A DNA stretch of 64,000 nucleotides, taken from the NCBI RefSeq assembly GCF_000219625.1, contig NC_018203.1, positions 543,045-607,044 of the forward strand, written 5' to 3'. Below are positions 27,535-64,000 of the stretch, piece after piece. Origin of the DNA: Zymoseptoria tritici IPO323 (lineage: Eukaryota > Ascomycota > Dothideomycetes > Mycosphaerellales > Mycosphaerellaceae). Position 1 is the stretch's first letter. Each line of letters opens with the position of its first letter. The notes below the pieces were generated by a model, which saw nothing but the letters and a program-made list of their open reading frames with translations, was not told where the DNA came from and ran no database searches. The position numbers and the translations under genes are program-made.

Positions 27535-27547
27535 TATCCCTCGGGGA

Positions 27548-30194: not shown

Positions 30195-30226
<32 letters not shown>

Positions 30227-34282: not shown

Positions 34283-34295
34283 TAGACCGTCGAAA
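34283..34295. repeat. LINE-A target-site duplication, 3' copy
   Basis: TAGACCGTCGAAA, identical to 28679-28691. Confidence 0.9.
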
Positions 34296-35505
34296 GGTTC
34301 TAGATATATTTCCTCGTCGAGGGGGCCCTCGAGGTATACCGTAATAACGTCCATTTGGTACACTACTAGTCCTCGTATAGCCGTAATAGCTAAGAGGATT
34401 AGTAGGCTTTCGAGACGGACAATAGGCGTAAAGGTTTCGAAGTAATCGACGCCGTATTGTTAGCTAAATCCCCTAGCAATAAGCCTTGCTTTATACTTAT
34501 CGATCTGTCCGTTAGGAAGTAGTTTTATCTTAAAAACCTACTTCGAGGAAACGAGGTTTATCCGGGTACCTTATAGAGTAGATAGCTCGTTTCCCGGTAA
34601 GATCTCGAGCGTTCCTATTAATAAAAGGGATTATATCTCGTCGTCGATAGCCTGTTTCTATTCCCGGCTTTGCTTACTACTTATAGCCTCGTTATAAGTA
34701 GTAGGCGTAGGAATTTCCGTCGTAGGGGAGTAGTCGACCTTTCGTACTTCTAGCCGGTATCTACTAGGTGCTCTTCGCTCCCGAGTAGGTCTACCGTTCG
34801 TAGAAGGTTCCGTATCGTTCGTAGTAAGCCTCCGGGGGCGTACTACTATAGTATCGTCGATATCCTCGTTAGGATCGTTGTTGTCTTCGTTCGTACTATC
34901 GTTTATAGACTCGGTAGCCTCTCTTCCTTCCTCGTCTTCCTCGTCGGGGTCGAAGTCGTACTCCTCGGTAGTACTAGGCGTAGTCTCGATAGGTATAGCT
35001 TCTATACCTATTATATTCGCCGGGTAGAAGACGTCTCCTCCGCGGGTATCTTCGTCGAATCGTATAGACGTAGCGAGCTTTATAGCCTTTATTCGGGGGT
35101 TAAAGATCCGGTACTACTTCGTAGACGGGCTATACCCGATAAAGATGCCGGAGTATACCGAGTCTTCTAGCTTATCTACTCGTTGCTCGTTCGGTATAAG
35201 CGTATAGGTTATATACCCGAATACTCGAAGATGTTTCCCGCTAGGCTTCGTACCGGTAAAGAGCTCCTCGGGGGTCTTATCTTATCCTTTCCTCGGGATC
35301 CGGTTCCTTAAGTAATAGGCCGTACTTATAGCCTCGCCCTAAAGGAACTTAGGTAACCTCGAGTTACCTAGTAGGGACTTAGCTAAAGTAACGAGCGTAC
35401 GGTTCTATCGTTCGGCTACGCTGTTCTACTCCGGCGTATACGGGACTATAGGCTCTATATCAACGTCCTCGAAAAGATTCCCGAGCTTTATAAGCTCTTT
35501 AGCGT

Positions 35506-35519
35506 TATCCCGGCGAATA
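35506..35519. repeat. LINE-B target-site duplication, 3' copy
   Basis: TATCCCGGCGAATA here and at 41107-41120. Confidence 0.9.
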
Positions 35520-35728
35520 TTGTTTTGTTGTTTGTTTGTTCCATTTACGTCCTGTAGGAGTCTATGACTATGTAGGACGGCTGTCTCGCGACAGTAGTCT
35601 ATCTATGTACAATCGTTGTTCTCTCGTATCTCTTAACCTTAGGGAAAGACCCGTGCCTAGGATAGTAGCAAGCTAGTATCGAAGGACTTTAAAGAAAGAC
35701 AAATAAGGAAAAGTAAAAGGAGTGTAGG

Positions 35729-38700
35729 CTAGACGGTCTCGTCTTCGCCTCTTGCTAGGTGCCAGGACCTAGAAGCAATCTTTGTATCCGAGAGAAAGGT
35801 AGTAAGGTGTTTCCGGAGTTCCTTATCTTCTACTATTTCTAGTAGAGATTGTGCTTGTCGTAGCGGTAGTAGCCTAAATACATTGTAGATAGGGCAGCTA
35901 TATACGAGGTGTTCTGCTGTTTCTCGTCGTCCGTAAGGGCAGTCTAGCGTCGTTGCGTATCTAAAGCGATAGAGATAGGACTTTAGGTATCCGTGTCCTA
36001 ATAGGATAGTATAGAAGGCACTAGTTAAAGCGCGTCTTCCTCCTATTCTATGTTTTCCTAGCGAGCTCTATAGAAATCGACTAAGGTAGCTATTTATATT
36101 CCTAGGTACCTTATTAATCTCCCGTTGTCTTGCTATTTCGTATCGGGTTTTCCAGACGCTAAAGAGATCGTCTTTTGCGTAGTTAGCCCTCTCGTATTCT
36201 ACGAAATGCTTGTATTGTCGGAGTCGATAACAGAGTAGTTATATCTGTGTTCTCTATCGTTTTTGCGGAAGTATCTCTCTCGAGTCTTCGTATCGGACTT
36301 CTCGCGTATCCGAAGGCGCGCTTTAGATAGCGAGTCTTACAGGGTAGTTTTCGGGTAGCTTTGCTGCGCGTAGAGAGTATAAAATTAACTGTCTCTCTAG
36401 GCGTAGATCCGGGGGGAAGAGATTTAACTCTACTTCGGACAGGATGTTTAGGGCGGTACGGAAAACGCCTAGGATCTTCCTACAAGCTTTACTTTATAGA
36501 GATACTAGAGGTTTTATGCTCTTTTTCGACCGCTACTAAACCGGGGCCCCGTAGTCTGCTATTATAGTAACGTAGGCTAGGTAGATCTTTCTTAACGATA
36601 TAGAAGATAGACCGCGTTCGGTATTTGCTAGTCTTTCTAATCGATAGAATGCCGCTTGTACTTGTGCCGATCTTATTGTAATGTGCTCCTTAAAGGTAAG
36701 ACCGGCATCTAGCTAAATCCTAAGCTACCTTATCGCTTTCTTCGCCGGGCGAACAATATCGCCGTTTAGAAGAATTACCGGGCAATCGGACCCTTTCCCT
36801 TTTAAGAAGTGTACTAGGTCTGTCTTTGCTAGGTCGAAAGTAATCGAGTTCTTCTTTCCTAGGTCTATTAGCCTTCTTGCCTTACGTTCTAGTACCTTAG
36901 AGTTCTTCTTAAGGGACGTAGACAAGGTAGATAGTCTAATATCGTCGACGTAGGAACTAGGAGTAACTCCTTATAGCGAGAAGAATATGTCGCGCGTATA
37001 GATAAGAAAGAGGATAGGAGACATCGGGCTGCCTTGCGGAACGCCGATCTCTACGTCCTAGAATTCCTGTATCTGTCTGTCGAATGCTATTCGTAGGCGT
37101 CTATTACTTATAAACGACTAAACCTAACATATAAGGCTATGCGGAAGCCTTAACTAGATTATTATTCTTAATAGTCGGTTCTTTGTAACGTAGTCGTATG
37201 CTCCTCTTACATCGAGGAAGATAACCGAAGTCTTCTTTTTCTTTCTTCGATTCTCTTCGATTTCGTTCGTTAAGAGAAGTACCGTATCGATAGCCGATTT
37301 CTTCTTTCGCCCTCCTAACTACGAGTCGTGTAGAAGGGGCTTCGTCTCTACGATAATCCCTAGGCGTTTTGCGAGTATTCTCTCGCTAATCTTGCTAAGG
37401 CAGTTTAGGAGAGAGATAACTCGGTAGGCCTTAGGGACCGAATAGTCTGGTTTTCCCGGCTTTGCTAGAACTGCGCCTGTCGCAACTTTCCAGCATCGGG
37501 GGTAGTATCCTTCGTCGAGTAGCCTACTATATGTACGTAGAAAGGTAATAGGAATAGCGCTGTACGCTTTACTAATAATAGCTTGCGTAATACCGTCTGG
37601 GCCCGGCGTTTTTCCTTTTACTATCTTCGTACTACAGGCGGCAGCGAGTTCCTCTTCGGTTAGCATAGTCCAGCCCTAATCCCCGGCTGTATACGCTTCC
37701 TAACGGCTAGGTAGAGGTTCCTTGGCAGGAGGGCGCGGAAATAAGGCTTCGGAGAAGGCCTTACATTTCCCCTCGAAAGAATCTTCGTTATTTATCGTAG
37801 GTATCTGTCTTCGGCTGCTATTCCTAGTATAGGACATAGCTTTAAAGATAGATTTCGAGTCTTCTTTTTCGAGGAAAGCGTTCTAGTAGTTCTTCTTAGC
37901 TGTTTTAATAGCTTGGAAGTACTTGTTTCTCGCTTTCGTATACGCCTCTTTCTCGTCTAGCGTCGGCATACGTCCGCAGGTAAAGATCTGTCTATATGTT
38001 CTAGACATTGTGCGGCGTAGCGTGCGTAGCTCTCTATTCCACTAAGGTTTTGCGCAGGCGTGTACTACTTTCTCTAGGATTGCTCCCCGCATCGATTCGG
38101 TAATACACAAGGTAAAGGAGTCTACGATGTCGTCGAGGGAGTTCGTATAGTTAATAGACATTGCCTTGCTTATTAGGAGATCTGTAAACAGTTCCTAATC
38201 CGCGGAAGCTATATCTAGAACTACTTTCTTCTGTTAGGCTCGATCTTGCGCGCTAATAAGGTCTATAGATATAGCCTTATAGTCTAAGCCTGTCGGAATC
38301 GTTCTCCAGTCGATTTCTTTCGTAGATAAGGATCCTCTTGTGAACGTAAGGTCTAGGACCGACTCTGCGTCTAGGTGCGGCCTATAGAAGGTCCCGACAC
38401 CTATCGTGTTACATAGAGTAAAGCCCTAGTCTTCTATCCACTCTATAAATTCGCGGGCACTAGTAGTATCCTTTCCCCTCGGATCCTAGGACGGGTGTCT
38501 AAGGTTAAAGTCTCCTACTAGTAGAGTATTTGGAAGGAACGTGTTGCGTAGAGAGTAGAGGCTTCTCTCTGTTGTTCGTCGGTTTTGCGGGTTCTCGGTA
38601 TCTCGAAGGTCTTTCTCGTTATAGAGATTAACTATCTAGATCTTGTTGCCCCTCTTGTCTAAAATAACAAAGGAAAGTATGTCGCTGTCGTCTAATAAAA

Positions 38701-38974
38701 TAGGAGAGATATTAACGTTAAGTCTTGTGCTAATATATAGCATTGTCCTTGGCCGGATCGTCGAATCCGTAGTCGTTAGGAATAGCTAGTTGTACTCCCG
38801 GTGTGCGATAGATCTTGTCTCTTTGTAGCCTATTATTAGGTCTTCTATAGTCCACGGTTCCTAGACTAGTAGAAGGTCGGCTTTCTGCTTAACCGCGACA
38901 TCTAAGGTAGACTCTATAGCCTCGATAGATCGGTTAAGATTAACGTAGAAAATCCGTAGAGAGTGTTCTAACAT
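35729..38974 (-). pseudogene. LINE-B ORF2: endonuclease and reverse transcriptase
   Basis: ATG at 38974, stop near 35731-35729. The RT segment at 37319-37666 is identical in protein to that of LINE-A (MLTEEELAAACSTKIVKGKT onwards). The same Trp/Gln-to-stop changes are present (for example KP*WNREL near 38040, AD*ELF near 38195). The catalytic YVDD is kept (about 36944-36952). Inactive. Confidence 0.85.
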
Positions 38975-40134
38975 ATAGAACGTTCTAGGGGCCTCCCTTT
39001 CTGTTGTATACGATCCTTCGCCTTCTCGACTCTTAGGCTGTCCGCGCCTACATATAGACGGTTTTAAATAGCCCTTTTTGCCTCCTCCTCGGTAGCAAAA
39101 CCTACTAGAACTATCGCCCTAGTAAGAGTCCTTCTTCTCTCTTCGTTTGTTAGCCAAATCGGGGTGCCTGCGAGTTTAAGACCTCTATTAAAGGTCTTAA
39201 TTTCTCGTTAAATGTCCTATAGGCCCGTTAGCGTGTTAAAGTTCGCGGTCGAGACGCCGTAGACTACAACCTTGTGCTAGAGAGAGTCCTCTATTACCTG
39301 TGCCTCGCCTACGATATCGGTAACCTTAGTAAGGCTATCGATCGTTCGTTAGCGGGCTTTCTCTGTTGCAAAGTTTAGGACAATGTTGCCCCGAAACGAT
39401 TTCTTTATCGCAAGGACAGCTAGCTCTTAGTCTTCGCCTTTAAGAGCGTCGTTAATTTTGTCTCGGGTTGCGATCTAGTCGAGTTCCTTCTCTTTATCCT
39501 TTAGTACAAGGATAAGAGGCATTAGTTCTACTTGTTCTTTCGGCTTGCTAGCCCTCCGGGAGACGGTCGTCTAACGTTGTTGTTGTTGTTGTTATTGTTG
39601 TGTTGTCTTTGTTATCGAGGAGGTAGAGGTAGAGGTATCGGATCCGCTATCTCCCTTAACAACGTCCGCGAAAGTAGGCTTCTTCGCCTATGCTGCTAGT
39701 TTCTTTGTTATCGTTTCTAGGTTCGAGACTTGCTTTGCGAGGATTTAGGACGTTGTCCTAAAGTCTGTACACTCGGTAAAGTGCCGAAAGACTTTAAGAA
39801 GGTCGAGAACCCGGGTTTGTTCTTCTAGAAACCCGCCTAGATCCCCTACCGCTTCGACTAGTAGCTGTCGGGCTTATAGGATCTTCTCGTTTACAGGCGT
39901 GCGAGAGAGTGTTTGTTTCTTTCCGAGAGAAGGGCTGCGAGTTAGGGAGATACTAAATTCGAAGGGGTTTTGCCTTTTCCTAGGTAGGAAAGGAATGCCG
40001 GTTCTTTTTAGTAGTTCCTCCGGCAACGGCAGGGTTTTAAGAGACTTAAACGTAACTTCCTCGTCCCCTCTAGCCGTAGCTTTTGGAGTCTAAGGGGCTG
40101 AGCTTGCGTCTGTTATTTCCGTCTCGGTAGACAT
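38968..40134 (-). pseudogene. LINE-B ORF1 (Gag-like)
   Basis: ATG at 40134 starts the same MST.TE sequence as LINE-A. The stop overlaps the ORF2 start. The Gln-codon run (about 39573-39605 on plus as GTTGTT repeats) is shorter and interrupted. In-frame stops are present. Confidence 0.72.
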
Positions 40135-41106
40135 TGTCTTGTTGTTGTTGTTTGTTATTTAAAAAGAGGCTTAGCAGTCTTACGCCGAGAGGGCTGCTTG
40201 TTCGTCTCTATTTCTAATCGCGTTCGGGTCCTAGCCTACTTGCGACACTAGGGCACTCTTCTCCCTACTATACAAGAGTATAGGAGAAGGTATACTTTAA
40301 AGAGGAGAGAAGAGATATATAAATATACCTCTACTTCTAGGAAGTACTCTAGCCTGTAGCAACGTGCGTCTTTATAGCAGGCTTAAGAGGCGTTCTGCGG
40401 GTAGCCGTAGCAGGTTCGGGACAACCTTTATCTCTAGGGAAAGGTAGGCCTATACTCTATATAGAGTATCTAGCTATATAGCTAGTACTACTACTCTTAT
40501 CCCTAGAGGTGCAAATTCGTCCTTACTAAACTACACTGCTCCTTTAGCTTCCTCTCTCGGCGGCGTAGGACAACAGGTAACTCTAGTATAGAGAGAACTA
40601 AGTGTATATGTATATATATGTTTGTATATCCTAGGAACACTGCTCTTGTTTGGCCTTTGGCTCTTTCAAAATTCGACCAAATCAGGCGTTTGATAGCTAG
40701 AATAAAAGCTCTCGTCGAGGGCTTTCAAACGGGCTACACGGCGTCCGAATCGGCGGCGTATTGGTTGTGTTGTGGTGTGTTAAAGTGTTGTAGTATAGGT
40801 TGTAAACCCTCCTTGTGTAATGCCCTAAACAGGGAATGTTTCGAGTGTGGGGGAGGTAAGGTCGGAATAAGGTTTCGGAGGTGGGGGCCAAATCCCGGAG
40901 TTCAGCAAAATTTGCACCCCAAAGGGGGCAACAAGGTAAATCTTTAAACTCTAGTAGCGGCGTAGGTTTTGAGGGCAGCGGGGTGAATGCGGGTTCGTTA
41001 GGACGGCCTTGATAAGGGCTTTCGAATAGTGCGTGTTTGGTGATGATCGGGTCACTATTGGGTGTGCAATGGAAGTGCGGATGTCGATGAGCACGTTCTG
41101 TTTCTG
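40135..41106 (-). other. LINE-B 5' UTR
   Basis: This is the non-coding leader, homologous to 28692-29655 of LINE-A. It holds short purine/pyrimidine runs and a long plus-strand chance frame (40618-40947) that I do not regard as a gene. Confidence 0.6.
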
Positions 41107-41120
41107 TATCCCGGCGAATA
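41107..41120. repeat. LINE-B target-site duplication, 5' copy
   Basis: TATCCCGGCGAATA, identical to 35506-35519. Confidence 0.9.
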
Positions 41121-42724
41121 GCTCTTAAGGTAGAGCCGCATTTCTGTTCTACTCGAGTCCGCTAACGGCGTATACGGTCGTATACCTCGTCCCTTGTCTT
41201 CGTAAGTTTAATCTAGCACTTCCGAGTATAGTCGTCCGTAATTATAAGTATATATCGATTCCCGGCGAGCGTCTTATACTTATAAGGGCCCTAAAAATCG
41301 ATATATACTCGGGCTAGAGGAGTAGTAGCTCGTTCGGGTCGTTCTCTACTTTATATACGAGTAGCCTTTGTTCGCTCGTAAGTATCGTAGAGGCTAGTAA
41401 GAGTAGGTAGCGTAGGTAGTCCCGAGAGTCCTAGGGGAGCTATAGTAAGCTTATCGTTTCCCGGGTACCCTAGACGTCTATACTAAAGTATAGAATGTTT
41501 CGAAGACTCTTTCGGTTCGGTAGAGGTAAAGCGAGTAGGTATAGACTCCTTAAGGACGTAAGAACGTCCTTATCTATAGCTAGTTACGAGGATATATTTA
41601 TCCCGTCGGATCTCGGCTTTCTCTTTACCAAAAAGAGTCGTTATATCGTTGTCGGCGAGCTACCGAATCGAAAGGAGGTTATAGCCGATGTTCGGGACGT
41701 ATAGTACGTCGGATAGCTATACTCTCTTTCCCGGGAGCTCGAATTCGATCGTTCCTTTCCCGGATATAGAGAGTTCTTTCCCGTCGGCTACGGTAATAGT
41801 ACCGCTTTCCGTACTATAGGAGGTATACTTCGACTTATCGAAAGTAATATGTTGCGAGCAGCCGGAATCTAGGACCTAATCCGGCGATTTATAACTACTA
41901 CTCTTTATAGTAGTTACGGTCTAGGCTTCCGTAATAGTCCGGGCCTCGTTCTCGGGCTCGGCGTCCTTCTCCTTAGCCTTACGAGTTCGGCACTCGCTTA
42001 TAAAGTGTCCTTTCTTCTTATAATAGAAGTACTTCTTATCTTTCTTCGAATTCGATCCGAAATCCTTCGTTTCGTTGTTCCTATTTAACTCCCTTAGTCC
42101 GGGGTTAGCCGCGGCGGCTCGGGCGAGTACCTCTTTAGTTTCTTCGAGCCCGTACTCGGTTTCCTTAAGGCGTTAGACTATATCGTCGTACGATAGCTTC
42201 GAAAGTCTAGTAGCCTTAAGAGCGAAAGTCGTAGACTTATACTCTTCTCCTAGGTACTTTAGGAGGATCGTCTTCTTCGCCGAGTCTTTCGGCGCTTCGT
42301 CCTTACTAAGGACAGCGATCTAATTCTATATCGAGGTTAATTTCGAGGCCGTTATATTAATAGAAGTAGTAAACTTTATCCTATAAAACGTCGATAGTAG
42401 AGCTTATATACGCTCTTCTCCGGTTGTCTCGTATATATTCCGGAGCTTCTCGAAGTAGGCCTTAGTATTAGTAAGTCCTAGAAGGTGTACGCGATAGCTT
42501 AGGCCCGCTACGGACTTAATAAGGGCCCTCGCCTTTATATCGTTCTTCTTCGAATCCTATTATTCGGTCCCGCCTTCTATAGTACCTGTACCGCCTTTAA
42601 TAGTCTCGAGTAGGTCCTTAGACTCGAGAATATCCTTTATAAGATCGCTCTAGTCCGGCTAGTTGTCCTTGTTTAACTCGGGAAGGTATATAGAGGCCTT
42701 CGGATCCTTAACGAAGTCGGACAT
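41121..42724 (-). pseudogene. Copia polyprotein, N-terminal part: Gag, protease, integrase
   Basis: ATG at 42724 begins MSDFVKDPKASIYLPELNKD. Gag ends in a zinc-knuckle region at about 42000-42055 that reads YFYYKKKGHFISECRTRK, where the first two Cys of CCHC have become Tyr (TGC/TGT to TAC/TAT). The protease active site DSGCSQHI is at 41846-41869. Integrase follows (RYILIITDDYTRK near 41225-41265, then KTRDEVYDR), and LINE-B cuts it at AIRRD. Stops at Trp/Gln positions are frequent. Normal products would build the particle, process the polyprotein and insert the cDNA. Confidence 0.88.
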
Positions 42725-43196
42725 GTTCGGTAATAGATATCTCGATAAATATCGATCGTATTATTATAATCTTAATACCGTTAAAACCGCGCGGTAATGT
42801 TCTATAATCGTATAGAATATAGTTGTTCTACGTTGTCGACTCGTTATGTTGTTTATTAACAAAGTCGCCTTATATTTAAATCTTTCTCGAGTCTAGATTT
42901 CTTCCGGCGGGAGGTAACGTTAAAATTTAAGTTTACGGAAAGTTGCCCGATTTAGTATAGTCGGCTTTTAAATCCGGGGAAGCAAAGTCTCGTTTCGGAC
43001 TTAGTAGATTTTTGAACCGGCGTTCGTAGGGGCGTAATGCTGAATACTGCGGCCGTGCTGAAATATACACTTCGTAGTTTTTCGAGTCGGTTGTTCGTCT
43101 CGTTTCTCGTAGAATTAGTCTCGAATTTCTCGGTGTTAGGCATTAGGCGTTGGGCGTTAGCGGGCGTTCTTAGATATATAGTTAGGTGTAATTAAA

Positions 43197-43221
43197 AGCG
43201 CGCTACTTCCGGGCTTATAAC
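43197..43221 (-). promoter_or_regulatory. Copia primer-binding site, half-tRNA(iMet) type
   Basis: Just inside the 5' LTR the minus strand reads GTTATAAGCCCGG, then GCGCGC a little further on. GTTATGAGCCC is the complement of the initiator-tRNA anticodon arm (GGGCTCATAAC), so the site fits Ty1/copia priming by a cleaved iMet tRNA with one TG-to-TA change. The match is from memory of the tRNA. Confidence 0.5.
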
Positions 43222-43495
43222 TATTAGATTTGTAAACGATAGGATTAAATTGCTTATACTAAGTAATCTATCTACCGAGGGGATTCGAGGCCCTTATATC
43301 CCCCCTCTATATATATAGATAGAATCGAGTGCGTAATCCCCTACGTAATAGCCCTGTTTCGTCCCTTTGTTTCGAGCTATATCTAGTTAGTCCCTATGTA
43401 TTAGCTATATATATCTATATATATATAGCCGAAACAGGTAGTGTATATCGTATATAGATAGTATATCCGATCGTCCGGTATCCCTTGTTCTAACA
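43222..43495 (-). repeat. Copia 5' LTR (right)
   Basis: 274 bp, starts TATTAG (TGTTGG in the left LTR) and ends CTAACA. It keeps the canonical CA end while its start is mutated; the left LTR shows the reverse. Confidence 0.9.
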
Positions 43496-43500
43496 CTTGC
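43496..43500. repeat. Target-site duplication of the Copia element, right copy (CTTGC)
   Basis: Matches 27240-27244. Confidence 0.9.
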
Positions 43501-50955: not shown

Positions 50956-51655
50956 AGGTCGGAGGAGGGTAATTCCTACTGCGAGGTGAACCACATAGGC
51001 GGCCTGTCAAGTACCTTATGTCGCTTGCAGCTTCTTTCCGACGCACCCTCGTCTCCACCGAGGGCATGTCCTCCAGATCCGGCTGTCGAAGCAGAGATAT
51101 TCCTAACACCGTGTCGTTGCCTGGAATCGCCGCTCGCCTCCCGCCTGTCTCTCGAATACACCTGGCCACTTTGATCATAGAGCCTTCCGAGGGCTCTTCT
51201 CAGGCTCCTGCTGGCACAACAGGAAGGTACTGGCTCTTCGTTAATAAAGCTCCTACTTCGAGGCGACCGAGCGACAATCCCAAAGCTCAGCTTGCGATCG
51301 CTGGGCGAATGCTTTGCGAATGCTACCAGCGCGAGGCCGGTATGCCAGCATCTCCGGGCTGTCAGGCTTTACTGGCGCTCTGTCCAAAAAGTGTGCGCAA
51401 CGAAAGAGGTATGGGAACTGCTTCCCGCAAATTCCGCGTCACGATGGCGGCACGGCTGTTGTTCTGTTTGCGTCTGTGTGTCGAGCGGTCGTCTGACAGA
51501 GCTGGACAACATGGCGCTTTCCCGCAAGGCGAACCGGCGAATCGCTACGCGCTACGCGCTGCACATACGTCGACGAGCCGGCGGCGGCCCTCTTGACTGG
51601 TCCAGAAGATACTTAGCATCGGCGAGGAGCTAGCGGCAATGCGACTCGGCTATGT
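50956..51655. other. No convincing gene between the kinase-like gene and the AT-rich block
   Basis: Two overlapping plus frames (192 codons from ATG 51018; 113 codons from 51292) are Arg/Ser/Ala-rich without motifs. GC-rich sequence continues to about 51655, where composition drops sharply. Confidence 0.3.
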
Positions 51656-52141
51656 GGACAAGACCCTAGCTTTACATAGTGTTACAAAAAAGTAGTTATA
51701 TAACTTTAAAATCACATAATCTGAGGTTAGGTAATTAGACAGGGAATTAATAGCGTAATCTAACATCTAAAAACTCTTTAGTTAAACACGTAGCTAAAAA
51801 AGTAATTTAATTAATTATAAGAGGTACGAGTACTATTTTATAAAAGACTATAGCCGTCTTTCTACGATAATAGGGATATAATAAAGGTCTCTTTTAATTA
51901 GTTTTCCTAACAAAAAGAGAGGTCTATTAAAGCTTACTTTTAATTAGTCGTCGTATCGTTACTTATACTATCGTAATATCGTATTATTACCTTAGGTAAG
52001 GTAAGCTTCCTTACCGCACTTCTATAGTAGAAGAAAAAAAAGAGGCGTCGTATTATCGGTCGTATCGTCGTATCGTCGTATTATTATATCGTTATATTAT
52101 TATAACTATTATAACCGTCGTAATCGAAAGGTCGTAGTTTT

Positions 52142-52300
52142 AATTCCTTCTCTTTTTGCCCTATTATACTATTATAATCTATAAAGGTTAGAATAGTACG
52201 ATTCGATAGGGTAAAAAGAGAAGGAATTAAGCCCGCGACCTTCCGCTAGAAAGCGAGATTTAAACGCTCTTTCTAATCGGCTAAAACGCTAATCTAATAA
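52142..52300. repeat. Inverted repeat with a tRNA-like arm (possible SINE relic)
   Basis: ATTCCTTCTCTTTTTGCCCT at 52143-52162 is inverted at 52209-52229 (AGGGTAAAAAGAGAAGGAAT). On the minus strand the right arm is preceded by TTAGCCGATTAGAAAGAGC, then a stem-loop and GAAGGTCGCGGGCTTAATTCC. This looks like a tRNA A box, anticodon-like arm and B box altered by C-to-T change. The left arm has only the last part (AAAGGTCGTAGTTTTAATTCC). Two head-to-head copies of a tRNA-derived element would give this. Folding was not computed. Confidence 0.33.
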
Positions 52301-53619
52301 TTAGCTAAGAAACTTTCCTAATATATTACTTTACTACTTCTACCTTATATATATACTTAGACGTAGAGAGTCCGCTAGAAACCTTATAGTTTATAAGAAG
52401 TTTAGAGGGCGGTATACTAGCCCCTATATTAGTTATAAGCCCGGATTTATATAAAAAGAGATACTAAATAAGGCTTTAATAGCGAATTTAAGTCTACTAT
52501 TAAAAACAACTCTTCCTAAAGAGAAGTAGTTAACTACTACTTACTTAGAATTAGAAAGAGTAGTATTCTAAATAAAAAGTAGTTAAGACTATCCTCTTAG
52601 ATTTAAGAATACTAGTTTCCTATTAGAAAAGTAATTAACTACTACTTACTCTAATTATAATATCTCTACTAAAACGGAAAAGCTTTACTAAATCGTTACT
52701 AAAATAAGTAAGAACGATATTATAGCGAGTAAGAATAATATTAAAGTAAGTAAAGACGATATTAAGGTAGTTAGGATAGTATTAGGAATACGTCTCTTCT
52801 AAGAGTAATATAACCTAAATATAAGTACCTCGCTAAACCTATTATATTAGGAAGTATTAATACTTTATCTATATATAAGACGAATACTTCTTAAATTAAT
52901 TTTAAATATTAAGCTTAATAGTTAAGATAGTCTATCTAACGTTAAATAATAATAAGAACTATACCCTAAAGCTAATAGCTCCCTAGGACTACTATATATA
53001 GTTTATAATAATAGAAATCTTTATAATATCTCGGGATCTCTAGAAATATACTAATCCTAACGTACTTAAACTAGAATCTCCCTAGGTTACTATACTAAAG
53101 GAAACGGCTACTATAAGGGGGGAACTTCTAAAGGTTCCGATCTCCCGCGGATAGTAGTAGTACGGACGTACGGGGTAGTATAGGGGGCAAAAAAGGGCGG
53201 TAAACTATATAATTAGAGTAAAAGGTAGGGGGGCAAAAGAGGTAGTATTAAGTACTCTATACTATTAGGCCTCGTATTCGTGTCGAAGGTCCTTTTTAGA
53301 GGTCCTCCTAGGTCGGTGTCTATCTAATCCTCCGACCTATATACGAAGCTAAAGCTAGATATAGACTATACGTAATAGTACGATATTCCCTACTATATCT
53401 GTCCCCCTCCTATAGTATCTAACCTAGACACTATAAGAACCTAAACTATACTATTATATACGCTTAAAGCGTAAAAACCCTCTAGATCTAGTACTAGCGT
53501 CGTCCTTTTTAACTTATTACTAACGTAGACTATCCCTATCCTCGGGTTTTGTACCTACTACGTATATCTATCGTATATATTATAGCTAAAACAAAAGAAA
53601 TAATAAAAAGAAAAAAAGA

Positions 53620-55360
53620 ACCTTAAAATAAGCGCTAGTATAGAAAATAGCCGCTCCTTATATCTTGTTCGTACTAAAGGTTTCCTAGACCCGATACGGA
53701 TTTTAGTCTAGTAAAGGCTATAAACCTATCGCTAAGTACTATCCTCCTACTATATATCGCGTCTAGGTACGCGCTTACTATCCTTACCGATAAGTAAGTC
53801 GGGGACTTCCTAGGGTACTACGATGTCTATATCTCCCTACCTAAGTAGCTTACGTTCCCTATCGTCTATATCGTTAGGCGCGACTTTAGCTAGTAGAGGC
53901 TAGTACTTCTAGAAGTCGGTCGGATGCTTATCCTTAGCGTTATAGTACGATCGGTTACCGAACGTATTCCTCTCCGCGTACTTAATATCCTTATAGTTTA
54001 CCTTTACTCGAGCTATAGTCGCATCTCGCTACTTCTTAATCTATACCCTTAGATCGACAACATTAAGGCGTATAAGCCTCTCTAATTCGACGACGACTCT
54101 AGGGCTCTCCTACTTCTCGTAAGTAATAAGTATAGTAGCGATATAGTTGTTAGGTATTAAAGATATAGCCGTAGGGAAGGCGTAAGGAATCTTACCGTAC
54201 TTATTAATAAGCCCGGAGGGTATCTTATCGGGGGCGGTTAGGTCTATATAAGCTTTACGTAGCATCTCCTAGTTACTAGCTTCGGTACATTCGAGAGAAC
54301 TATCTATATATATAGCTACGAACTAGGGAAGAATCGTTCGACGTTCGGTCTCTACCTTAGTATCGATACTATATAGTAGATACGGAACCGTAATACGAAC
54401 ATTAAATGCCTTATAAGGAACGTGTTCCTACTCGAGCTTATAGCGATCTAGGAAGTATTACGGTAGCACCGTAGTATTAATCTTCTATACTACTCCGTCT
54501 ACGTAGTTATTAGCCTTTATCTACTAGTACTATTCCTAAAAGATCTCCTTCTCGTACATCCTCTTAATAAGCACTATATAGTCCTTCTTGCCCTCGTCTA
54601 TTAAGGAGACCGTACCTTAAATCTAGTTAATACCGCGATTCTCCTCGACTATACGGCTAACCGTAAGGTCGATGTACTTAAAGGTAGTATTGTTGCCCTT
54701 CTTAGTACTTTTAGCGTAGTATAGGTATAACACTAGCCGGTGCTTATAGTTACCTCGTAGAAGAATATATAGTAGCTAGTATAAAATGTCCTAGCGGATA
54801 AGCTACTAGATTTAAGAGTAGCATATCGTACGAAGCTATCCGTAGTTAGGCTAGCTATTAATTTCGCGCTAATGCTATAAGTATATATCTATTTCCTTAT
54901 TAATAATCTTATAAAGGGCCTTGTCCTATCCGATCTACGCGAAGAGGGGAATGTTAAGCGTACTATTTCTCTTAAACTCGTGCTCCTAACCGGGCGTTAA
55001 GTATATTACTTAGCGAGCCTTATTAAAGAAGCCGTTAAAGTTAAGCTAGCCGAGTTCTCTACGTAGGACGTTATTATCGAAGCGGTACGGCCTAAGGAAG
55101 TCCGATAGTCGAGACGGACGAGCATCCTTAAACTATATCTTATACGTCTCGGAACCTATCTTTAGCTAGCTAAGCTTATACGTATCGTACTTAAGGGTAG
55201 TAAGTCTAAAGAGCGTATTGTTCTTTACTATTATATTCCCGGTCTTTACCTTAATTCCGAAGTATCGAAGTAGGTCCTTCGTATAATTATAGTATAGGAA
55301 CGTACACTTATCCTTTAGCTTCGTACTGTCCGGATATAGTAGCTATAGGTATCGAAATAG
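53620..55360 (-). pseudogene. RIP-destroyed subtelomeric ORF resembling the N-terminal part of telomere-linked helicases
   Basis: A single minus-strand frame runs from 55360 to about 53620 and is interrupted only by TAG/TAA codons, all plausible Trp/Gln. Readable blocks include LRRELG*LNFNGFFNKAR, RNSTLNIPLFA, RIVEENRGIN, NNYVDGVV*KINTTVLP*YF, PSGLINKYGKIPYAFPTAIS, NYKDIKYAERNTFGNRSYYN, PLLAKVAPNDIDDRERKLLR and LIGKDSKRVPRRDI. I recall this type of sequence from ascomycete subtelomeric proteins that carry a RecQ-type helicase further downstream; no helicase motif is visible here. The 5' part of the gene is missing: the frame is cut exactly at the interstitial telomere tract. The family call is from memory and moderate. 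Confidence 0.45.
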
Positions 55361-55361
55361 C

Positions 55362-55402
55362 TAGGGTTAGGGTTGGTTTAGGGTTAGGGTTAGGGTTAGG
55401 GG
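55362..55402 (+). repeat. Interstitial telomere tract (TTAGGG-type, 41 bp)
   Basis: TAGGGTTAGGG, one variant unit (TTGGTTTAGGG), then three to four further TTAGGG units ending in an extra G. It has the same orientation as the terminal telomere. It joins the truncated helicase-like ORF (left) to the 3' end of the telomeric LINE (right). Confidence 0.92.
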
Positions 55403-56502
55403 TTCATTGTACTTGTTTATATAGGCTAGTCTACCTTTGCACCTGATCTGAACTGAAGCCCCATCCAAGCCCTTGCTCCCGGCTCTTTTGGCCGTCTTCA
55501 GAGGGGAGGAAACAGACCCACGCTCCTACGTAAAGCGCCTTGCGATGCACGGCACCGCAGCTACTCCCAGCCTAACTACGTTTTACGGTGTCCTTTTCAC
55601 TATCTCCCGAGTTGACCAAACCGCCAAAAAGAGAGACTACCGATAGGCTAGTCTGCATCCTAACGTATAATATCGCTCCGGCAATCGCTTACCGTCTATC
55701 GTACCTTAGTTTTCCAAACCTCCTAGGTAACGGACGAGGTGTGCGTCTCCTTATCCGCCCGAAACTGTAACCCCGTCTCGTTAAGGGGGAACATCCCGCT
55801 TTAAGACCGTCCGGTAGAGCTCTGTCCTCCCTTTGTCCGGCGTATCTACTGTTAGAGACATTCGATTCCGATCGAGCCGCTTGCATACTAGTCTACAAGT
55901 GCTTCCTAAACAGTTTAGGGAGTGCCGTCTTCCCTTCGGCTAGAATTCCTCCTCCAGCGATCGTCGTCGTCTACTCCTCTCCCCTACTACGCCGTCGCCT
56001 TCGCTTTCCTCTAAGCCTCCTACTGCTCTGCAGAGGTACTAGTTTTCTTCCTCCCGCTCCCCGGCTTTAAGAGGAAGCAGCCGCAGATCTAGGGTACACG
56101 CCTTACATCTACTGCTAGGCCTTCTAGATAGAGTTGATTGTCCGGTGCGGAGCCAGTCCGGGCCTCGCCAGTCGCCTACGTCTCCCACGTCGCAGCGCAG
56201 CCTTTTAACGTCCTACCGATCGGACGCCTACTTTCATCTTAAGGGAAGAGACTCCTTTTCGATAGGGTAAACGCCTAATTTATCCTTAAGGGATGATCTC
56301 CGCTTTTGCGTCCCGGGTCGACGGAGCTACTTTACGTCCTACCCATCGGACAGAGCCTTTTAACGTCCTACCCATCGGACCGAGCCACTTTACGTCCTAC
56401 CTATTAGACGGAGCCACTTTACGTCCTACTCATCGGACCGAGCCTTTTAACGTCCTACCTATCGGACGGAGCCTTTTAACGTCCTACTTAGGACAGTGTG
56501 CA
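55403..56502 (-). other. LINE-T 3' UTR
   Basis: About 1.1 kb follow the ORF2 stop. The part nearest the stop holds the 29-bp repeats; the rest has no readable frame except short Arg-rich readings. The telomere-proximal 150 bp would be the part recognised by the RT during priming. Confidence 0.55.
56330..56492. repeat. 29-bp tandem repeat, six units, LINE-T 3' UTR
   Basis: ACGTCCTAC..ATCGGAC with CGAGCCTTTTA recurs at exactly 29-bp steps (ACGTCC at 56334, 56363, 56392, 56421, 56450, 56479). A single further copy is at 56208. Confidence 0.9.
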
Positions 56503-59500
56503 CTAGGTCTGTGCCGCCGCTTCCTCCGCTTCCTCCTTCGTAGCTTCCTCCTTCGTAATCTTTGTTAAGATTCGCTCGAGGATCTCGTTAGCTCGCTCCT
56601 AGCATCCTGTATTTAGAAGGAAGTCTACCTCGGTAAACTTCGTGTTCGTAGTGCCTATTTTCTTATGCATCTTCTGCTTCGCCCGTCGTTCCTTCCTCGA
56701 GAGCTAGCTCGTCCTGTCTTCCTAGTAGCAAGTCTCGTGTTCTTAGATGAATTTGCTCGTACAGACGCAGAAACCATAGGTATAGAAGGTTCTACGCCGA
56801 TACTAGAGGAAGCGCTTCTAGAAGGACCGCGGGGCCTTTAAAAAGTAATCGGCTCCTCGTAAGTCCCGCTTTAGGCGGCTTTCTCCCGGTATAATCCAGG
56901 TCAGGCTCCACTTCTTAGCCTCTTTAGCTATATCTTCCTCTCTCTCCTAGCGCAGGAACCGCTAGATAGAACGGCGGTCTTCGCTAAGGCTTCGGTCGCG
57001 AGGCCAGGACTTGGGTGTCTTGCGGTACTTCTCGTAGAGCTTGTCCTCCGTTAAGCGCTGGAAGAACGCTTTAGGTTTCTAGATTAGTAATCCTAACTTC
57101 CGTAGCGGACTTTCTTCCGGAGCGTGCTTCTTTACGACCTAAAAGCCAGTTTTTAGTGCCTTAAATCGCGAGGGTAGGGCGGAGATTCCTAGGAGATTGC
57201 GAGTAAAGTAAGGGTTAGAAGCATAACCCGAGATCCACTTTGTTAGCTTCGCAACGTCCTTAGTCGTCTCGTCCCAGAACTTAGGAGAGTCCTTAGCAAA
57301 CGCCGCGAGGAGAGGCGCGCTATACTCGAACATCGGTGCGAGATACTGCCGATAGACTCGCAGGCGATACGCGAAGCCCTAACTATCCGCGTCGAGGGTT
57401 AGGAAGTCGCTTCGTTTCCCGGCCTGTTCGAGCCGGCTCTTAAGGTGCCTCCTTAAGTCAATCCCTCGCACCGTTACAGGAAATCCGAGGTAGGTATATA
57501 CCTCTCTCCTTAGTACCTCCGCACTAAAGAGGTAGATCGCCTCCTACAAAGACGCCGGCGCCAGATAGGCACATTTTTTAATGTTTAGGGCGATGCGGTT
57601 GGCGGAGGACCAGTGCTCGAAGATCTAGATTAGTATACGCACCTCGTCCAAGTCGGTAGCAAGGAGAACACTATTATCGGCGAAGAACAGCGCGCGAGGA
57701 ATCGGCGGCGCCGTAGGCATTACGTCGGAAGAGCCGGCCAGGGCAAGTGTCCTAGGTCGATTTAAGTCCTCGAGCAAGCTATCGATAAAGATGTTAAACA
57801 GATAGGGCGAGAGGGGTAAGCCCTGCAGAACTCCCCTTGTCCGCGGAAACTACCGAGAAGCCGTACAATCCGAAACGACAAAGGACCAGACGTCGAAAAA
57901 GCAGAGGCTCGTAATCAGAGCTAGCATGTTCTCCGGACATCTCCGCCGGCGTAGAACGTCCGCGAGTAGTACATGATCTACGACGTTAAAGGCGGCTTAA
58001 AAATCGAGGAATACAGCGTGTATAATCCGGCTCGATTCGAGGAGGGCGTGGACGACCGCGGCGTTCGTTATAGTAGAGTAGTGACTTCGAAATCCCGCCT
58101 AGTTAGGATGCATCCTCGCCTATGTCCTACTATTAAAGCGCTAGAGGAGCAGGCGCTCGAAGACCTTTCGAAACATCGTCACTAGCGAGATCGGACGAAC
58201 GTTGTTAGCGTCCTTCGCCGGCATCGTACTATCCTCCTATCGGGTCTTGTCCTTAACGACCAGATAGACAACAGTTTCGTTCTAGCTCTACGGCGTCTTA
58301 CTATCCCGGAGATAGGAATTGTAGAGGGCGGCCAGGATCTAGAGGAAGCTCGTCGTCGCGAGGGTTTTTATTAGACGGATGTGTACCCTATCGTTTCCGC
58401 AGGCCTTCGTAGCATCCTAGTAGGTAAGCTCCTACATTATCTCGTCGATCGAGAAGGAGAGTAAGGCGGATCGATCGTCGACAGGAAACATCTCCCGTAC
58501 TGGGAGGGTCGCTGTCGAGACGAATCAACCGGTAAATCCCTCTATCACCTCGTCGATTGCCGTTATCCCTTTCGCCTTCCCTGCCGGGGTCGGCACTAGC
58601 AGTGTATTCTCGTTCGCGCGGCGCTACGCTCTCTTATAGAGACGGACCGTCTCAAGCGTCCCGCTATCGGCGTCCGGATTCGGCTTCGCTATTGCCTTAA
58701 GATGCTAGTCCTTCTTCTTCTTACTACGGCGGCGTAGCCGCTTTGGCTTGCGAGCAGCGTCGTTATTATCCTCGGCTTGCTTTCGCTTCGGGTCTGTTAT
58801 CGCCTTTCGAGGCCTGTCGTTCTTCTCTCTACCTCTATTCTTCTTCTCTCCCTCTCGATCCTTCTTCTCTCTGCCTCTATCCTTCTTCTCTCCGTCTCTA
58901 TTCTTCTTCTCTCCGCCTCTATCCTTCTTCTCTCTGTCTCTATTCTTTTTCTCTCCGCCTCCGTCACTTATATCCTCCGCCTTTTGTCTACCCGGAGGAC
59001 GATTTCGACAACGCGTAGAGGCGAGTCCTAGCACGGCTTTGCTTACCTGCTGGCAGAGCGACATAATTTCCGCATTCCGCTTGTCTACATCGGCGCTTAT
59101 ATAGTACAGATGCCGTCGATGCCGCGCCCTTCTCTCCTAGCTATAGCAGAGCGCCTGCGCCGTATCGTTGTCGTTCAGCCGGCTTATCGCATAGCGTCGA
59201 AGTTAATACGGCACGGCTAATCTACCTAGAGTACCTGTAGTCGGGTCTAGCTAGAGGTAGAGCTAGTAGACATAGTTAGTATTTATCTTCTCCGTCGGTC
59301 GCGGTAGAGCTAGCGTCGTATATAGCAGCGTCCGGCGGACAAAGTAGTAGTCAGTCGTTAGTTGTTTCTCGCACATAGCGTCCGCAATCGTGATCGGCTC
59401 CTAGATCAGCATTAGATAGGTTATCGCGGAGTCCTCGATCTATTGCGACACAACCTTCCGTCTCGGAAGCGGCGACACCTTCCTGCTCTAGAGAGACATC

Positions 59501-60027
59501 TTACTAAAGCGGACGTTAATATCTCCGAGAACGACATCGGAGCTAGCAACTGCCTCGAGCGTAGACCGGACCTCATCCGGCTTCCGCTTAGGGGGAAAGT
59601 AGACTCCGCTAATCGTTCCCTGGTCCGTCGGCAGGGTTATAGCGTCCGTCCTAATGATCTGCGCCTCGCTAGTAAGCCAACTTCGCGCGCGTACTGTCCC
59701 TATTACCAGAATCCCACAGCCTAAGCGACCCTTTCTCGGCACCGTATCGGGCTTCGCTGTAGTCGCAATCACGCGGTAATCCGCTTAGTGCTTCTTATGC
59801 TCGACGAACTAGGTCTCGACGATAAAGAGGTAGTCGAGGACGTCGTCGTTAATTAGCGCTGCCAGGATCGGCCACCTATTATCCCCCAAGCCCCGGATGT
59901 TAATACATCTAATCCTAGCATTCCTCCTAGTCTCGCGACCCGCGAGAGGACTCGCCTCCCCTAGATGCCTCTCGACTCTCTCTCTTAGAGGATGCTCCTC
60001 GAGTCTCTCTCTTTAAGCCTAGGCCAT
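56503..60027 (-). pseudogene. LINE-T ORF2: AP-like endonuclease, charged repeat linker, reverse transcriptase, Cys/His tail
   Basis: A single minus frame runs from ATG 60027 to TAG 56505-56503 (1174 codons) with roughly 30 TAG/TAA and one TGA at Trp/Gln-like positions. The endonuclease has CINIRGLGDNRWP (about 59903-59865), FIVET, GVYFPPK and VLGDINVRF (about 59529-59503). A Lys/Glu/Arg heptad repeat lies at 58820-58965. RT has VRPISLVTMFRKVFERLL (58200-58150), HPN*AGFRSH, VFLDFKAAFNVVDH (about 58020-57975), GVLQGLPLSPYLFNIF (57834-57790) and FFADN at 57690. The last Asp of the catalytic pair is Asn (GAT-to-AAT), which kills activity. A C-terminal FCVCTSKF..EHETC motif is near 56770-56725. 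It overlaps ORF1 by about 100 bp in another frame. Confidence 0.82.
58820..58967 (-). repeat. 21-bp tandem repeat encoding EKK(N/D)R(D/G)x, about seven units
   Basis: On plus, CTTCTTCTCTC-GCCTCTAT-type units repeat every 21 bp. In ORF2 frame they encode GEKKNRDREKKDRG-type heptads. They sit between endonuclease and RT and form a highly charged linker. Confidence 0.88.
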
Positions 60028-61813
60028 CCTCCTGTCCCGCCGGCTCCTCTTCTAGCCCCTGCTATATTAGCTCGGCTTTGAACTCGTCAAAGACGCCGGC
60101 ACTCTTCGCCTTCTGCCGTACTACTTGCCTTTTGAATTTGTTATCGGCTTCTCGATAGCAATCGACGAACTCGCAGACCTAATCCGCAGACGATCTCCTA
60201 GGAAGGTTTATAGAGCGGGGTTAGAGTGGTTTCCGCTTACAGTCCGCCAAAGGAGAGGTTAGTTTCGTTCGTAGCTTCGGCTCCGCGGAGAGAATCCGGA
60301 AGGTCTTCGCTTTTAGGGAGGGCATTACCAGTTCGGCACGCGTGGCTAGGTCCGCGATCCACGGCCTCTACCGTCCTGACGAAGAGAACGGAAAGGGAGT
60401 AAGCTCCTTCGCCTTTGCGGGAGAGGGCGTGTCTAGAGAGGGCACAAGGGGAGGAGGGACGGATGCCGTAGAAAAGGGCGAGAGAAGGTTGTAGTCCTTA
60501 CTAGGAAAGAGGTCGTAGGGTCGCACCTCGGGAGGAACACTCTTCCCTCCGCGCTTCTCCTTAACGGAACGGTGCGGAAGACTCTTCCTCCGCTATCTCT
60601 CCTTAATCGACTCTGCTCGCGCGTCGTTCCGGCCAGGCGGTAGGGCTCCGTTCGTAGCGGGTCTCGATTCCTTCCGGTGCTTACTCGCGCCGTCTTTAGG
60701 TCTAGGAGGGTCTAGAGGATCTTCACTCGAGCAATAAGGAGGACCTTCGTCTGAGCGATAAGGAGGACCTTCGCCTAGGGTATACAGGAGGCGGTTAACT
60801 GATCGCTTCGTCTCCTTCGCCGCGCAGATCAGGCAGGCCTCGGCGTATTTCTAAAAGAAGGGTATCTGTACGATAGGCTTTAGTACAGGGTCGACTAGAA
60901 TCGCGGCAGGGTTAGTCTCCGGGACGAGGACGGTAGGGATCGTTAAGGGGATATCGATCGAAGGCAGCCTAGTTAAAGGGATGTTAGTAGGGAGCCTCGT
61001 AGAAGGAATGTCCGTAGATGGAATGTCTGTAGAAGGAAGATTCGTCGACGGAATCTTCGTCGAAGGGATGCTCGTAGAAGGAAGATCCGTAGAGGGAATA
61101 TCTAGGAACACGTCCTCCTCACGCCAGATCGTCTTCCTTAACCGACAATCCGCGGACGCCGTCTTAATCGAAGACTCGGACTCGAGTGCTCGCTTCGCCG
61201 GCGTAGTTACCGGCTCCTCTAGTCGATCTTTAATCTAGGCAACGAGCTAGGCCGTATCCTTACTATAGTTACGAAGCTGGTCCAGGATCGTTTGCGCCAC
61301 AAGTGTAAGTCTCGACCGGCCGATTTCCGCGGTAACGCTCTTAATCTACGCCTTAACAGTACGCCTTTTGTTCGTACGACACTTCTTGCACTCGAAGGTG
61401 CAGTAGTATCGTCCTTCCGTATCGGGATGTCCGGTCTTATTCCTTAGGACGCTAAAGTAGTCGATCTCGCTGCCGCACAGGATGACGCCCTTATAGAGCT
61501 CCCAGAGGGCGTCCGCAAAGGCTGTCAGACCTTCCTAGGGCCGTACCGCGCTCGTAGACGGTTTAGATAATATCCGAGGGTTAGAGGGCAGAGAGGGCGA
61601 CGCTAAGGGTAGAGGGGAGGAGGAAGCTACGAGGAACGTCGAGGGAGAGGTCGGCAAAGTAACGAGTCGGGATCGGTAGTAGGAGGCACTCGAAGGAGAG
61701 GGCAACCTAGGCAGAGAGTGCTTATAGATAGTTCGAAGTCTCTACCGCAGAGGAAAACCGAGGCTAAGAGCGTAAACGGGTAGTAGCGAGGCTCTAGAGA
61801 GGAGGGAACACAT
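59927..61813 (-). pseudogene. LINE-T ORF1 (Gag-like) with Cys motif and PST repeats
   Basis: The proposed start is ATG 61813 (MCSLLSRASLLPVYALSLGF); the frame ends near TAG 59929-59927, overlapping the ORF2 start. The start is uncertain because upstream codons are also partly open. A Cys cluster, DTEGRYYCTFECKKCRTNKR, is near 61410-61365 and could bind zinc and nucleic acid. The 15-bp PST repeat follows at 60975-61101. The C-terminus is charged (KRETRGASSKRESREASRGG). The frame has only a few TAG/TAA interruptions, fewer than ORF2. Family: LINE ORF1-like by position only. Confidence 0.6.
60975..61101 (-). repeat. 15-bp tandem repeat encoding (I/L)PST(D/N/K/S/R), about eight units
   Basis: On the minus strand it translates as STDLPSTSIPSTKIPSTNLP and STDIPSTRLP. 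The period is 15 bp, in frame with ORF1. Confidence 0.88.
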
Positions 61814-62602
61814 CCAGCTCTTATAGGGCCGGGGTGTGGTCGTCCTTCTCACAATTACGAGCAGGGTTAGCCTTACGATCGTCGATAGTTATCGTCGATA
61901 GCTATCCTCTTATCTCGCCGTCTACCGGGGTCTACAGCTTAATTACAATCGTCGCACTCGACAAGGTAGTAGTATAAAGGGCCACCCTCCCCTCCGTACT
62001 TACTCGTCCTGCTCGTCGTCTCTTCCTCCACTCCCCGGTCCGAGAATAGGCTATCCCCGGCATCGTTATATCGTCCTCTCCAGGCATCGTTATATCGTCC
62101 TTATCTCGATGCTATCCCGTCCTACTAGGCCTATATCCTCTTTATCCTCCCGTCTTCCTCTCCCTTCGCCCAGCTCGTCTCCGGTCTCGTCTGTTACCTT
62201 ACCGTCTCGCTTTCGAATCTCCTGTGTCCACGTCTTCTCCCTCCTCCTCCTCCGCCCTACTCTCGTTAATCTGTTCTCCGTCGTGCCGTTCTCGTGCCTA
62301 AGCTGTCCTCTATAGGCTGTTAAATCCACGTTAGACTTGCTATCCGCGTATTTTTGCTAACGAGGAGCTCGACGACGTAGTGCAGTGCTCTCCCGTCGTA
62401 GTAATTCCTGCCTACATTTAGCACTACCCCCTCCTTATCGGGCACCCGGTAGAAAGTGTAATAAAGCTGCACGTAGTAGCGCTAGCGTCGCAGGCTCTTA
62501 TATCGTAGGACTTCTATGTCTGTAGAGGTTTCTACGGTAGCTGTTCTTAAGCGTCGAGTAGGAGGTGTATGCTGCTTACGTGTTCGGCTGCTAGGTCAGC
62601 TC

Positions 62603-62727
62603 TCTGCCCATCCTAGCATTAGGCGAGAAATCCGCCTAGCAGCAAGGTAGGCTGGAAATCCGCCTATCCCGGCATTAGGCGGAAAATCCGCCTAGCGGCA
62701 AGGTAGGCTAGAAATCCGCCCAAGGTG
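62603..62727. repeat. 56-bp tandem repeat, block 1 (two units)
   Basis: GCATTAGGCG at 62616 and 62672, spacing 56. Same unit as block 2. Confidence 0.92.
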
Positions 62728-62967
62728 TAGAAGCTAAAACGGAAATTCCGACACACAGTCTAGCAGCGACACCTTAAGTTTCTCGACCTTTTTTAACACC
62801 ACAACAACGATCTTAAATTAAATATAGACACATAGAAAGGAACTTCTTATACTGGAGTTACTCTCCGTGTTCTTAGAATCTTTGAAATTAGCTATGTGCG
62901 CGAGATACGAGAGGTAAAAGTAGAAAGCCATAATTCTTAGAAGTTTCCGTTTTGCTTTCAGGCGGAG

Positions 62968-63290
62968 GCCGCCCATCCCGGCATTAGGCGGAAAATCCGC
63001 CTAGCGGCAAGGTAGGCTGGAAATCCGCCTATCCCGGCATTAGGCGAGAAATCCGCCTAGCGGCAAGGTAGGCTAGAAATCCGCCTATCCCGGCATTAGG
63101 CGAGAAATCCGCCTAGCGGCAAGGTAGGCTGGAAATCCGCCTATCCCGGCATTAGGCGAGAAATCCGCCTAGCAGCAAGGTAGGCTGGAAATCCACCCAT
63201 CCTAGCATTGGGCGAGAAATCCGCCTAGCGGCAAGGTAGGCTGGAAATCCGCCTATCCCGGCATTAGGCGAGAAATCCGCCTACACCCGT
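62968..63290. repeat. 56-bp tandem repeat, block 2 (about 5.5 units) with palindromic cores
   Basis: GCATT at 62981, 63037, 63093, 63149, 63205 and 63261, exactly 56 bp apart. Each unit holds the palindrome TAGGCGGAAAATCCGCCTA (or TAGGCGAGAAATCCGCCTA), then GCGGCAAGGTAGGCTGGAA. The core could form a hairpin or bind a dimeric regulator. Confidence 0.94.
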
Positions 63291-63873
63291 AATCCGTAGC
63301 CGGCCTGCCCTAGCATCGTCTATATCGTGAGAAGGGTAGACTTCAGCTATAGCTCCGGAAAGCGATACAATCCGCGTTTAGGCGGAGGAGGTAGAGCAGT
63401 TCGCAGTGCAGGCTATAGAGGCAATCCCAGCGGAGGAGACGGCGAGGTTATAGCAGAGAGGGAGGAGTCTTAGCGGGAAGTTCAGCGGTGCGCCAATTGG
63501 TCCTAGCGACCAGACACGGACCCTCCTTAGTCAATTAACTAAGGCGTAGGGCTCAGAGTTTACGGTCGACTAATTAGAGGAGCCGGACGGGTCTGGAGCA
63601 GGGCTCTTTCGACAACTCGCTGGACCTCGTCTCCTTCGCGCTTCCTCTTAACCATCGAAAATCCTTCTTAAGGGTCTGCCGACTAGTCGGGGCGAACAGA
63701 CGAATTCGAGGCTCGTCGTATACTTTTAGAACCCAACTTCTTAACCTTACGACGGGTTCTTTCGAAACTAATACAAGCTCCGAGTGCGGGTTATAACAAG
63801 AAGAATTGTCTGTTTTCAATCTTCGATATCGTATATATCAGATCTTCATTCGCCCGCTAGCAGATTTGGAGGT

Positions 63874-64000
63874 TTAGGGTTAGGGTTAGGGTTAGGGTTA
63901 GGGTTAGGGTTAGGGTTAGGGTTAGGGTTAGGGTTAGGGTTAGGGTTAGGGTTAGGGTTAGGGTTAGGGTTAGGGTTAGGGTTAGGGTTAGGGTTAGGGT
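63874..64000 (+). repeat. Terminal telomere (TTAGGG)n
   Basis: About 21 perfect TTAGGG units run to the window edge. The G-rich strand reads toward the end, as it must at a right chromosome end. Confidence 0.98.

Follow-up and report, generated by a model that had tools for sequence, protein, structure and literature searches.

A LINE family attached to telomeric repeats at the chromosome ends of Zymoseptoria tritici

The telomeric locus at the right end of contig C16

The stretch of DNA analysed here (the window) comprises 64,000 nucleotides of Zymoseptoria tritici IPO323 (NC_018203.1, positions 543,045 to 607,044) and forms the right end of contig C16 in the searched genome of 39,686,251 bp and 21 contigs (labelled C1–C21); the genome is described in print as finished, with 39.7 Mb and 21 chromosomes (PMC4522978). 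The subject is a long interspersed nuclear element, below called the telomeric LINE, which has an interstitial telomere on one side and the terminal one on the other, as proposed in a first-pass annotation of the window. In our analysis, the tract occupies 55362–55401, the element extends from 55402 to about 63871, and the array continues up to 64000. Both flanking tracts read TTAGGG on the plus strand, and (TTAGGG)2 occurs 23 times against none expected from shuffles. The plus strand passes from TTAGGG straight into the antisense of the LINE 3′ end, without poly(A). The locus consists of the following parts; AP stands for apurinic/apyrimidinic, and ORF for open reading frame.

55362–55401, plus strand: interstitial telomeric tract, imperfect repeats on the host-flank side, then perfect TTAGGG abutting the element 3′ end
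55402–63871, minus strand: telomeric LINE copy, antisense on the plus strand, with its 3′ end at 55402 and 5′-truncated at about 63871
56320–56487, minus strand: tandem repeat with a 29 bp unit in the 3′ untranslated region
56503–59919, minus strand: ORF2 remains, from translation, with putative AP-type endonuclease, reverse transcriptase, and C-terminal CxCx7Hx3C knuckle; about 36 stops; the same ORF is nearly open in copy L006
57478–58224, minus strand: reverse transcriptase domain, approximate, transferred from the RVT_1 match at residues 566–814 of protein P0001; FADD changed to FADN
about 59507–59529, minus strand: endonuclease motif LGDINVRF
59915–61900, minus strand: ORF1 remains, bounds approximate; ORF1 of L006 has 657 amino acids from stop to stop
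62620–63283, minus strand: two blocks (62620–62720 and 62969–63283) of 28/56-bp tandem repeats in the 5′ region
63872–64000, plus strand: terminal telomere with about 128 nt of TTAGGG repeats, which cap the element at its truncated 5′ end

The window copy, initially described as a LINE of 8.5 kb, is not a complete element. Long copies on C2, C7, C9, C17, and C21 extend beyond its 5′ end in one common sequence, and the copies on C1, C7, C9, C17, and C21 match each other for about 1.9 kb beyond this point, to the limit of the sequence compared, whereas in the window the telomere adjoins at once where the other copies continue as LINE. Hence, the window copy is 5′-truncated and telomere-capped, not full length, and the full element is estimated from the sequences at about 10.4 kb or more. 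Moreover, the window copy is dead, because it is mutated by repeat-induced point mutation (RIP; index 0.96–1.54 over 55400–63000 and 0.39 over 63000–63870), about 36 in-frame stops interrupt the ORF2 translation, and the catalytic motif of the reverse transcriptase is FADN, compared with FADD in the C9 and C21 copies. It is the outermost copy on its chromosome end.

Long copies also recur in the same orientation at C7:2613436/2636651 and C2:3802638/3825289, spaced by 23.2 and 22.7 kb, respectively; these intervals may hold longer parts of the element or nested elements.

Junctions, distribution, and truncation of the copies

A genome search with a 24-mer from the element 3′ end, allowing at most three mismatches, yielded 80 places, which, together with two copies having a shorter intact terminus, form a set of 82 junctions. 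At each of them the element directly follows the GGG of a telomeric tract (78 AGGG, three GGGG, and one CGGG), and the register is exactly GGG/G, with the slash marking the junction, in 79 cases. In all 82 copies, the 3′ end faces away from the telomere that is nearer, and each copy is close to a chromosome end (median distance 23,658 bp, maximum 85,375 bp, a band that makes up 9.0% of the genome), and the family is present on 34 out of 42 chromosome ends. The last 20 nt of the flank contain a run of five T in none of the 82 cases. Thus, the checks suggested by the first-pass annotation, i.e., whether the 3′ junctions are always telomeric, as in the poly(A)-free junction of the window, and whether the copies are confined to chromosome ends, were both answered affirmatively. 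Internal or poly(A)-tailed insertions were sought with two 3′-end patterns; one of these gave five internal matches with three mismatches, which the other pattern did not reproduce and which were taken as chance.

As a control, we used another LINE of this genome, which ends in a (CAAA)n tail and which we take to be Tad1-like and to represent family 623 of PMC4522978. Its 3′ end was found 424 times (207 and 217 by strand); among the first 100 places (C1–C5), 93 lie farther than 85,375 bp from the chromosome end, and an outward orientation is seen in 49. Since the control LINE is dispersed and (CAAA)n-tailed, the telomeric pattern is a property of the telomeric LINE family and not of LINEs in this genome generally; mostly internal, tailed, non-telomeric copies, named in advance as evidence against telomere specialization, are not what the family presents.

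The (CAAA)n-tailed LINE is also found nested in telomeric LINE copies, L008 near C9:19643 and L045 near C7:3666. The former site, with 17 nt of the element, was considered as an extreme truncation and rejected because of this nesting; it was kept among the 82, its 3′ junction being intact.

Truncation was assessed on 50 candidates for the reverse transcriptase region, with 40 copies scored. The 3′ end is retained in 39 of these, 1.7–2.4 kb away and in register. In turn, 22 out of the 82 proximal flanks are themselves telomeric LINE of the same orientation, with cut points ranging from nt 81 to nt 8430; telomeric or telomere-like repeats come next, and then the following copy. For two of the 22, namely, the C1 duplicate and one C7 neighbor, the cut is one already counted. 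Constant 3′ ends combined with variable 5′ ends are the pattern left by target-primed reverse transcription. Of 11 chromosome tips, chosen for a nearby copy and including the window, ten have from 8 to about 8,470 nt of LINE beneath the terminal array; irregular bases intervene at C5R and C9R, and other sequence lies between at C7R.

At the right end of C13 (L065), the interstitial and the terminal tract are separated by just 8–9 nt of the LINE 3′ end, with variant TGAGGG repeats immediately inward.

The interstitial tracts are short. Perfect TTAGGG at the 82 junctions extends over 3–24 nt, with peaks at 12, 17–18, and 23–24 nt, reaching at least 12 nt in 71 copies, at least 18 nt in 40, and more than 24 nt in none; under a relaxed rule, the median is 23 and the maximum 58 nt. 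Of the 75 tracts that reach 11 nt or more, 57 begin at T(T)AGGG. The terminal arrays examined have 90–162 nt (two measured 12–14 nt short), and the terminal telomere has been given as 128 ± 20 bp (PMC4589918).

Encoded proteins and their relatives

The endonuclease motif LGDINVRF, pointed out as AP-like in the first-pass annotation, is present in the window copy, and its assignment is backed by two observations: the AP-type motif residues are conserved in almost every one of 103 family proteins, and the endonuclease fold predicted for a relative matches those of TRAS1, R1Bm, APE1, and LINE-1 about equally, with TRAS1 heading the ties. Based on the conserved residues and the predicted fold, an N-terminal AP-type endonuclease is supported for the family. 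The fold of the environmental relative P0005 is far closer to LINE-1 (E 4.7e-26) and R2 than to telomerase (best 3.4e-07 among the 50 matches listed). Thus, the features expected of a LINE are in place, namely, a LINE reverse transcriptase, an N-terminal AP-type endonuclease, and constant 3′ ends with truncated 5′ ends. No RHD...PD motif, the mark of the C-terminal restriction-like endonuclease of MoTeR and FoTeR, was seen by eye in the 74 residues after the knuckle of P0001, where no profile search was made, and ORF1 of L006 contains no Pfam family above the cut-off.

The tree of reverse transcriptases covers 27 family rows, the control LINE with ten relatives, three R2 and three other LINEs, with L1, R1, I, CRE, Penelope, and TERT absent. 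The family forms a branch of its own (91/94), separate from both the control group (100/99) and R2 (99/99), and the program warns of long branches. Hence, in this comparison the placement proposed at first pass succeeds insofar as the family is separated from R2 and from the relatives of the control LINE, and yields no named clade. A grouping with Tad1 was not observed, as the family stands apart from the control LINE group, taken as Tad1 on the basis of PMC4522978 and general knowledge, subject to the same long-branch warnings. Relatives with flanking DNA were not confirmed in scans of viral and genome contigs, where 66 and 28 stretches, respectively, matched a pattern. One family member, P0066, is filed under the plant Escallonia rubra and is perhaps a fungal contaminant.

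Probable insertion at chromosome ends and comparison with known systems

Taken together, the telomeric attachment of the 3′ end, the single orientation, the complete 3′ but variably truncated 5′ ends, and the combination of an AP endonuclease with a LINE reverse transcriptase make it very likely that the telomeric LINE is a retrotransposon inserting only at chromosome ends by target-primed reverse transcription on the G-rich strand. The element RNA would be bound by its own protein, and the 3′-OH of the G-rich telomeric strand, exposed by an endonuclease nick or at a short or broken end, would serve as the primer. Reverse transcription would begin at one register (GGG/G) and often halt early, and telomerase would then cap the new tip. 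Repeated rounds would produce tandem truncated arrays, with the old telomere pushed inward as short interstitial tracts, and RIP would later inactivate the copies.

Several observations weigh against this interpretation. Entry to the set of 82 junctions was limited to copies with a recognizable 3′ terminus, and this set contains at least two dependent entries, as two junction pairs on C1 are identical due to segmental duplication. One copy bearing the reverse transcriptase region (C13) lacks a 3′ end at the expected distance, the nearest being 9.4 kb off, and a single telomeric repeat remains at the C4:2864068 junction. Target-site duplications are indistinguishable inside telomeric repeats. 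The common sequence of the long copies runs to the end of the compared stretch, so that the true 5′ end was not reached, and no undamaged element was found among the copies examined. Pfam detects no endonuclease family in ORF2, and the modeled endonuclease fold belongs to a relative, not to the window copy. Finally, tracts of at most 24 perfect nt (58 relaxed) compared with arrays of 90–162 nt mean that insertion is not random along the full telomere. The short tracts may reflect a preference for short or broken ends, the loss of long tracts by breakage, as reported for the long interstitial tracts of MoTeR (PMC7367193), or copying from the element RNA.

Recombination between subtelomeres, or break-induced replication, as the main route of spread, with the telomeric tracts representing old ends, would agree with the published shared subtelomeric blocks of Z. 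tritici (PMC4522978), the break-induced copying reported for MoTeR arrays (PMC7367193), and the duplicate pairs on C1. We nevertheless consider it improbable: just 13 pairs among the 82 flanks match at the threshold used, nine of them since both flanks are telomeric LINE, and recombination alone would not hold the 3′ ends constant (39 out of 40) while the 5′ ends vary. Even less probable is a Penelope-like element without an endonuclease that extends telomeres, as family 4 was filed in 2014; the reverse transcriptase gene, the 3′-terminal telomeric repeats, and the orientation rule are the same (PMC4522978), but the unit bearing the reverse transcriptase also encodes an AP-type endonuclease, and the P0005 fold is far nearer to LINE-1 and R2 than to telomerase. 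An assembly artefact fusing telomere and LINE, a refutation that the first-pass annotation had envisaged and to which the repetitive region might lend itself, is very unlikely, as one base-exact form recurs at 82 separate junctions whose flanks mostly differ, in a genome described as finished (PMC4522978).

A HeT-A-like attachment to exposed 3′ ends only, with the endonuclease unused in targeting, is a version of the retrotransposition reading rather than an exclusive alternative to it, and we regard it as possible, though doubtful. The short tracts, the tandem truncated arrays, and the capped tips are in line with such attachment, whereas the fixed register (79 out of 82 junctions) calls for sequence-specific cutting or pairing, and the endonuclease residues are conserved. 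More speculatively, and rather unlikely in our judgement, the element could be a self-contained healer of chromosome ends, its RNA ending in 2–4 CCCUAA units that its own reverse transcriptase copies onto a broken or eroded end, with the LINE following. The interstitial tracts would then be the product of the element and not old telomere. The tract lengths fit this scheme without proving it; if true, this would be a LINE with a telomerase-like template replacing the poly(A) tail.

Among known systems, HeT-A and TART of Drosophila resemble the telomeric LINE in forming end-attached head-to-tail arrays, and differ from it in standing in for telomerase, whereas the chromosome tips here are capped by TTAGGG arrays. 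The TRAS and SART elements of Bombyx are likewise LINEs specific for telomeric repeats, and the TRAS1 endonuclease heads the tied fold matches; SART1, however, is poly(A)-tailed and has TTAGG as its target, compared with no poly(A) at the 82 junctions here. MoTeR of Magnaporthe and FoTeR of Fusarium oxysporum also insert into telomeres with the 3′ end on telomeric repeats, and they share with the telomeric LINE the short interstitial tracts, the truncated 5′ ends, and the tandem arrays; FoTeR has upstream tandem repeats as well. Both group with CRE and have a C-terminal restriction-like endonuclease, in contrast to the predicted N-terminal AP-type domain here. Thus, the telomeric LINE works like MoTeR and FoTeR and is filed apart for its AP-type endonuclease.

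The telomeric LINE is very probably identical to family 4 and to RIL2, matched by place and by the count of 34 out of 42 ends, not by sequence. Family 4 is subtelomeric, with TTAGGG at a 3′ end that points away from the telomere, and is described as Penelope-like and endonuclease-lacking (Dhillon 2014; PMC4522978). RIL2, described as L1-like, is reported in 34 out of 42 subtelomeres (Schotanus 2015), the same number of ends as here, and RIL_element2 proteins are listed for chromosomes 1, 9, and 17, among others, one of them being gene model number three on chromosome 9 (Grandaubert 2015). The published family 4/RIL2 unit of 3.4–3.5 kb contrasts with an estimated 10.4 kb or more and a predicted AP-type endonuclease in our data. 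Hence, the subtelomeric location and orientation are already published and are not new, and the early proposal of a telomere-specialized AP-endonuclease LINE family in an ascomycete is supported, for a family known under other filings. As far as our literature search reaches, the AP-type endonuclease, the base-exact junctions with a control, the 5′ truncation test, the corrected filing, and more than 100 relatives are new. In the titles and abstract openings searched, with subscription literature only partly covered, we found no AP-type telomeric LINE in a fungus (further literature drawn on: PMC12857005, PMC8381367, PMC7265360, PMC5576322, PMC4502367, PMC8016269, PMC10823647, and PMC10470754).

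These results indicate that an AP-type LINE has been recruited to telomeres in a fungus. As MoTeR and FoTeR are of the restriction-like type, this suggests that telomere targeting arose separately. The results also correct the classification of an element that is probably the one reported as about 40% of subtelomeric DNA in a model pathogen, provide 82 base-exact junctions, and open up a clade, with more than 100 proteins, for tests of telomere targeting.

Two further parts of the window bear marks of RIP. A 16-kb block at 27000–43500 has a strong signature (index 1.34) between normal stretches and probably consists of nested repeats. The stretch at 51200–55350, directly proximal to the interstitial telomere, is RIP-marked and AT-rich (34–39% GC per 2-kb window); low GC has been reported for subtelomeric RecQ genes (PMC4522978).

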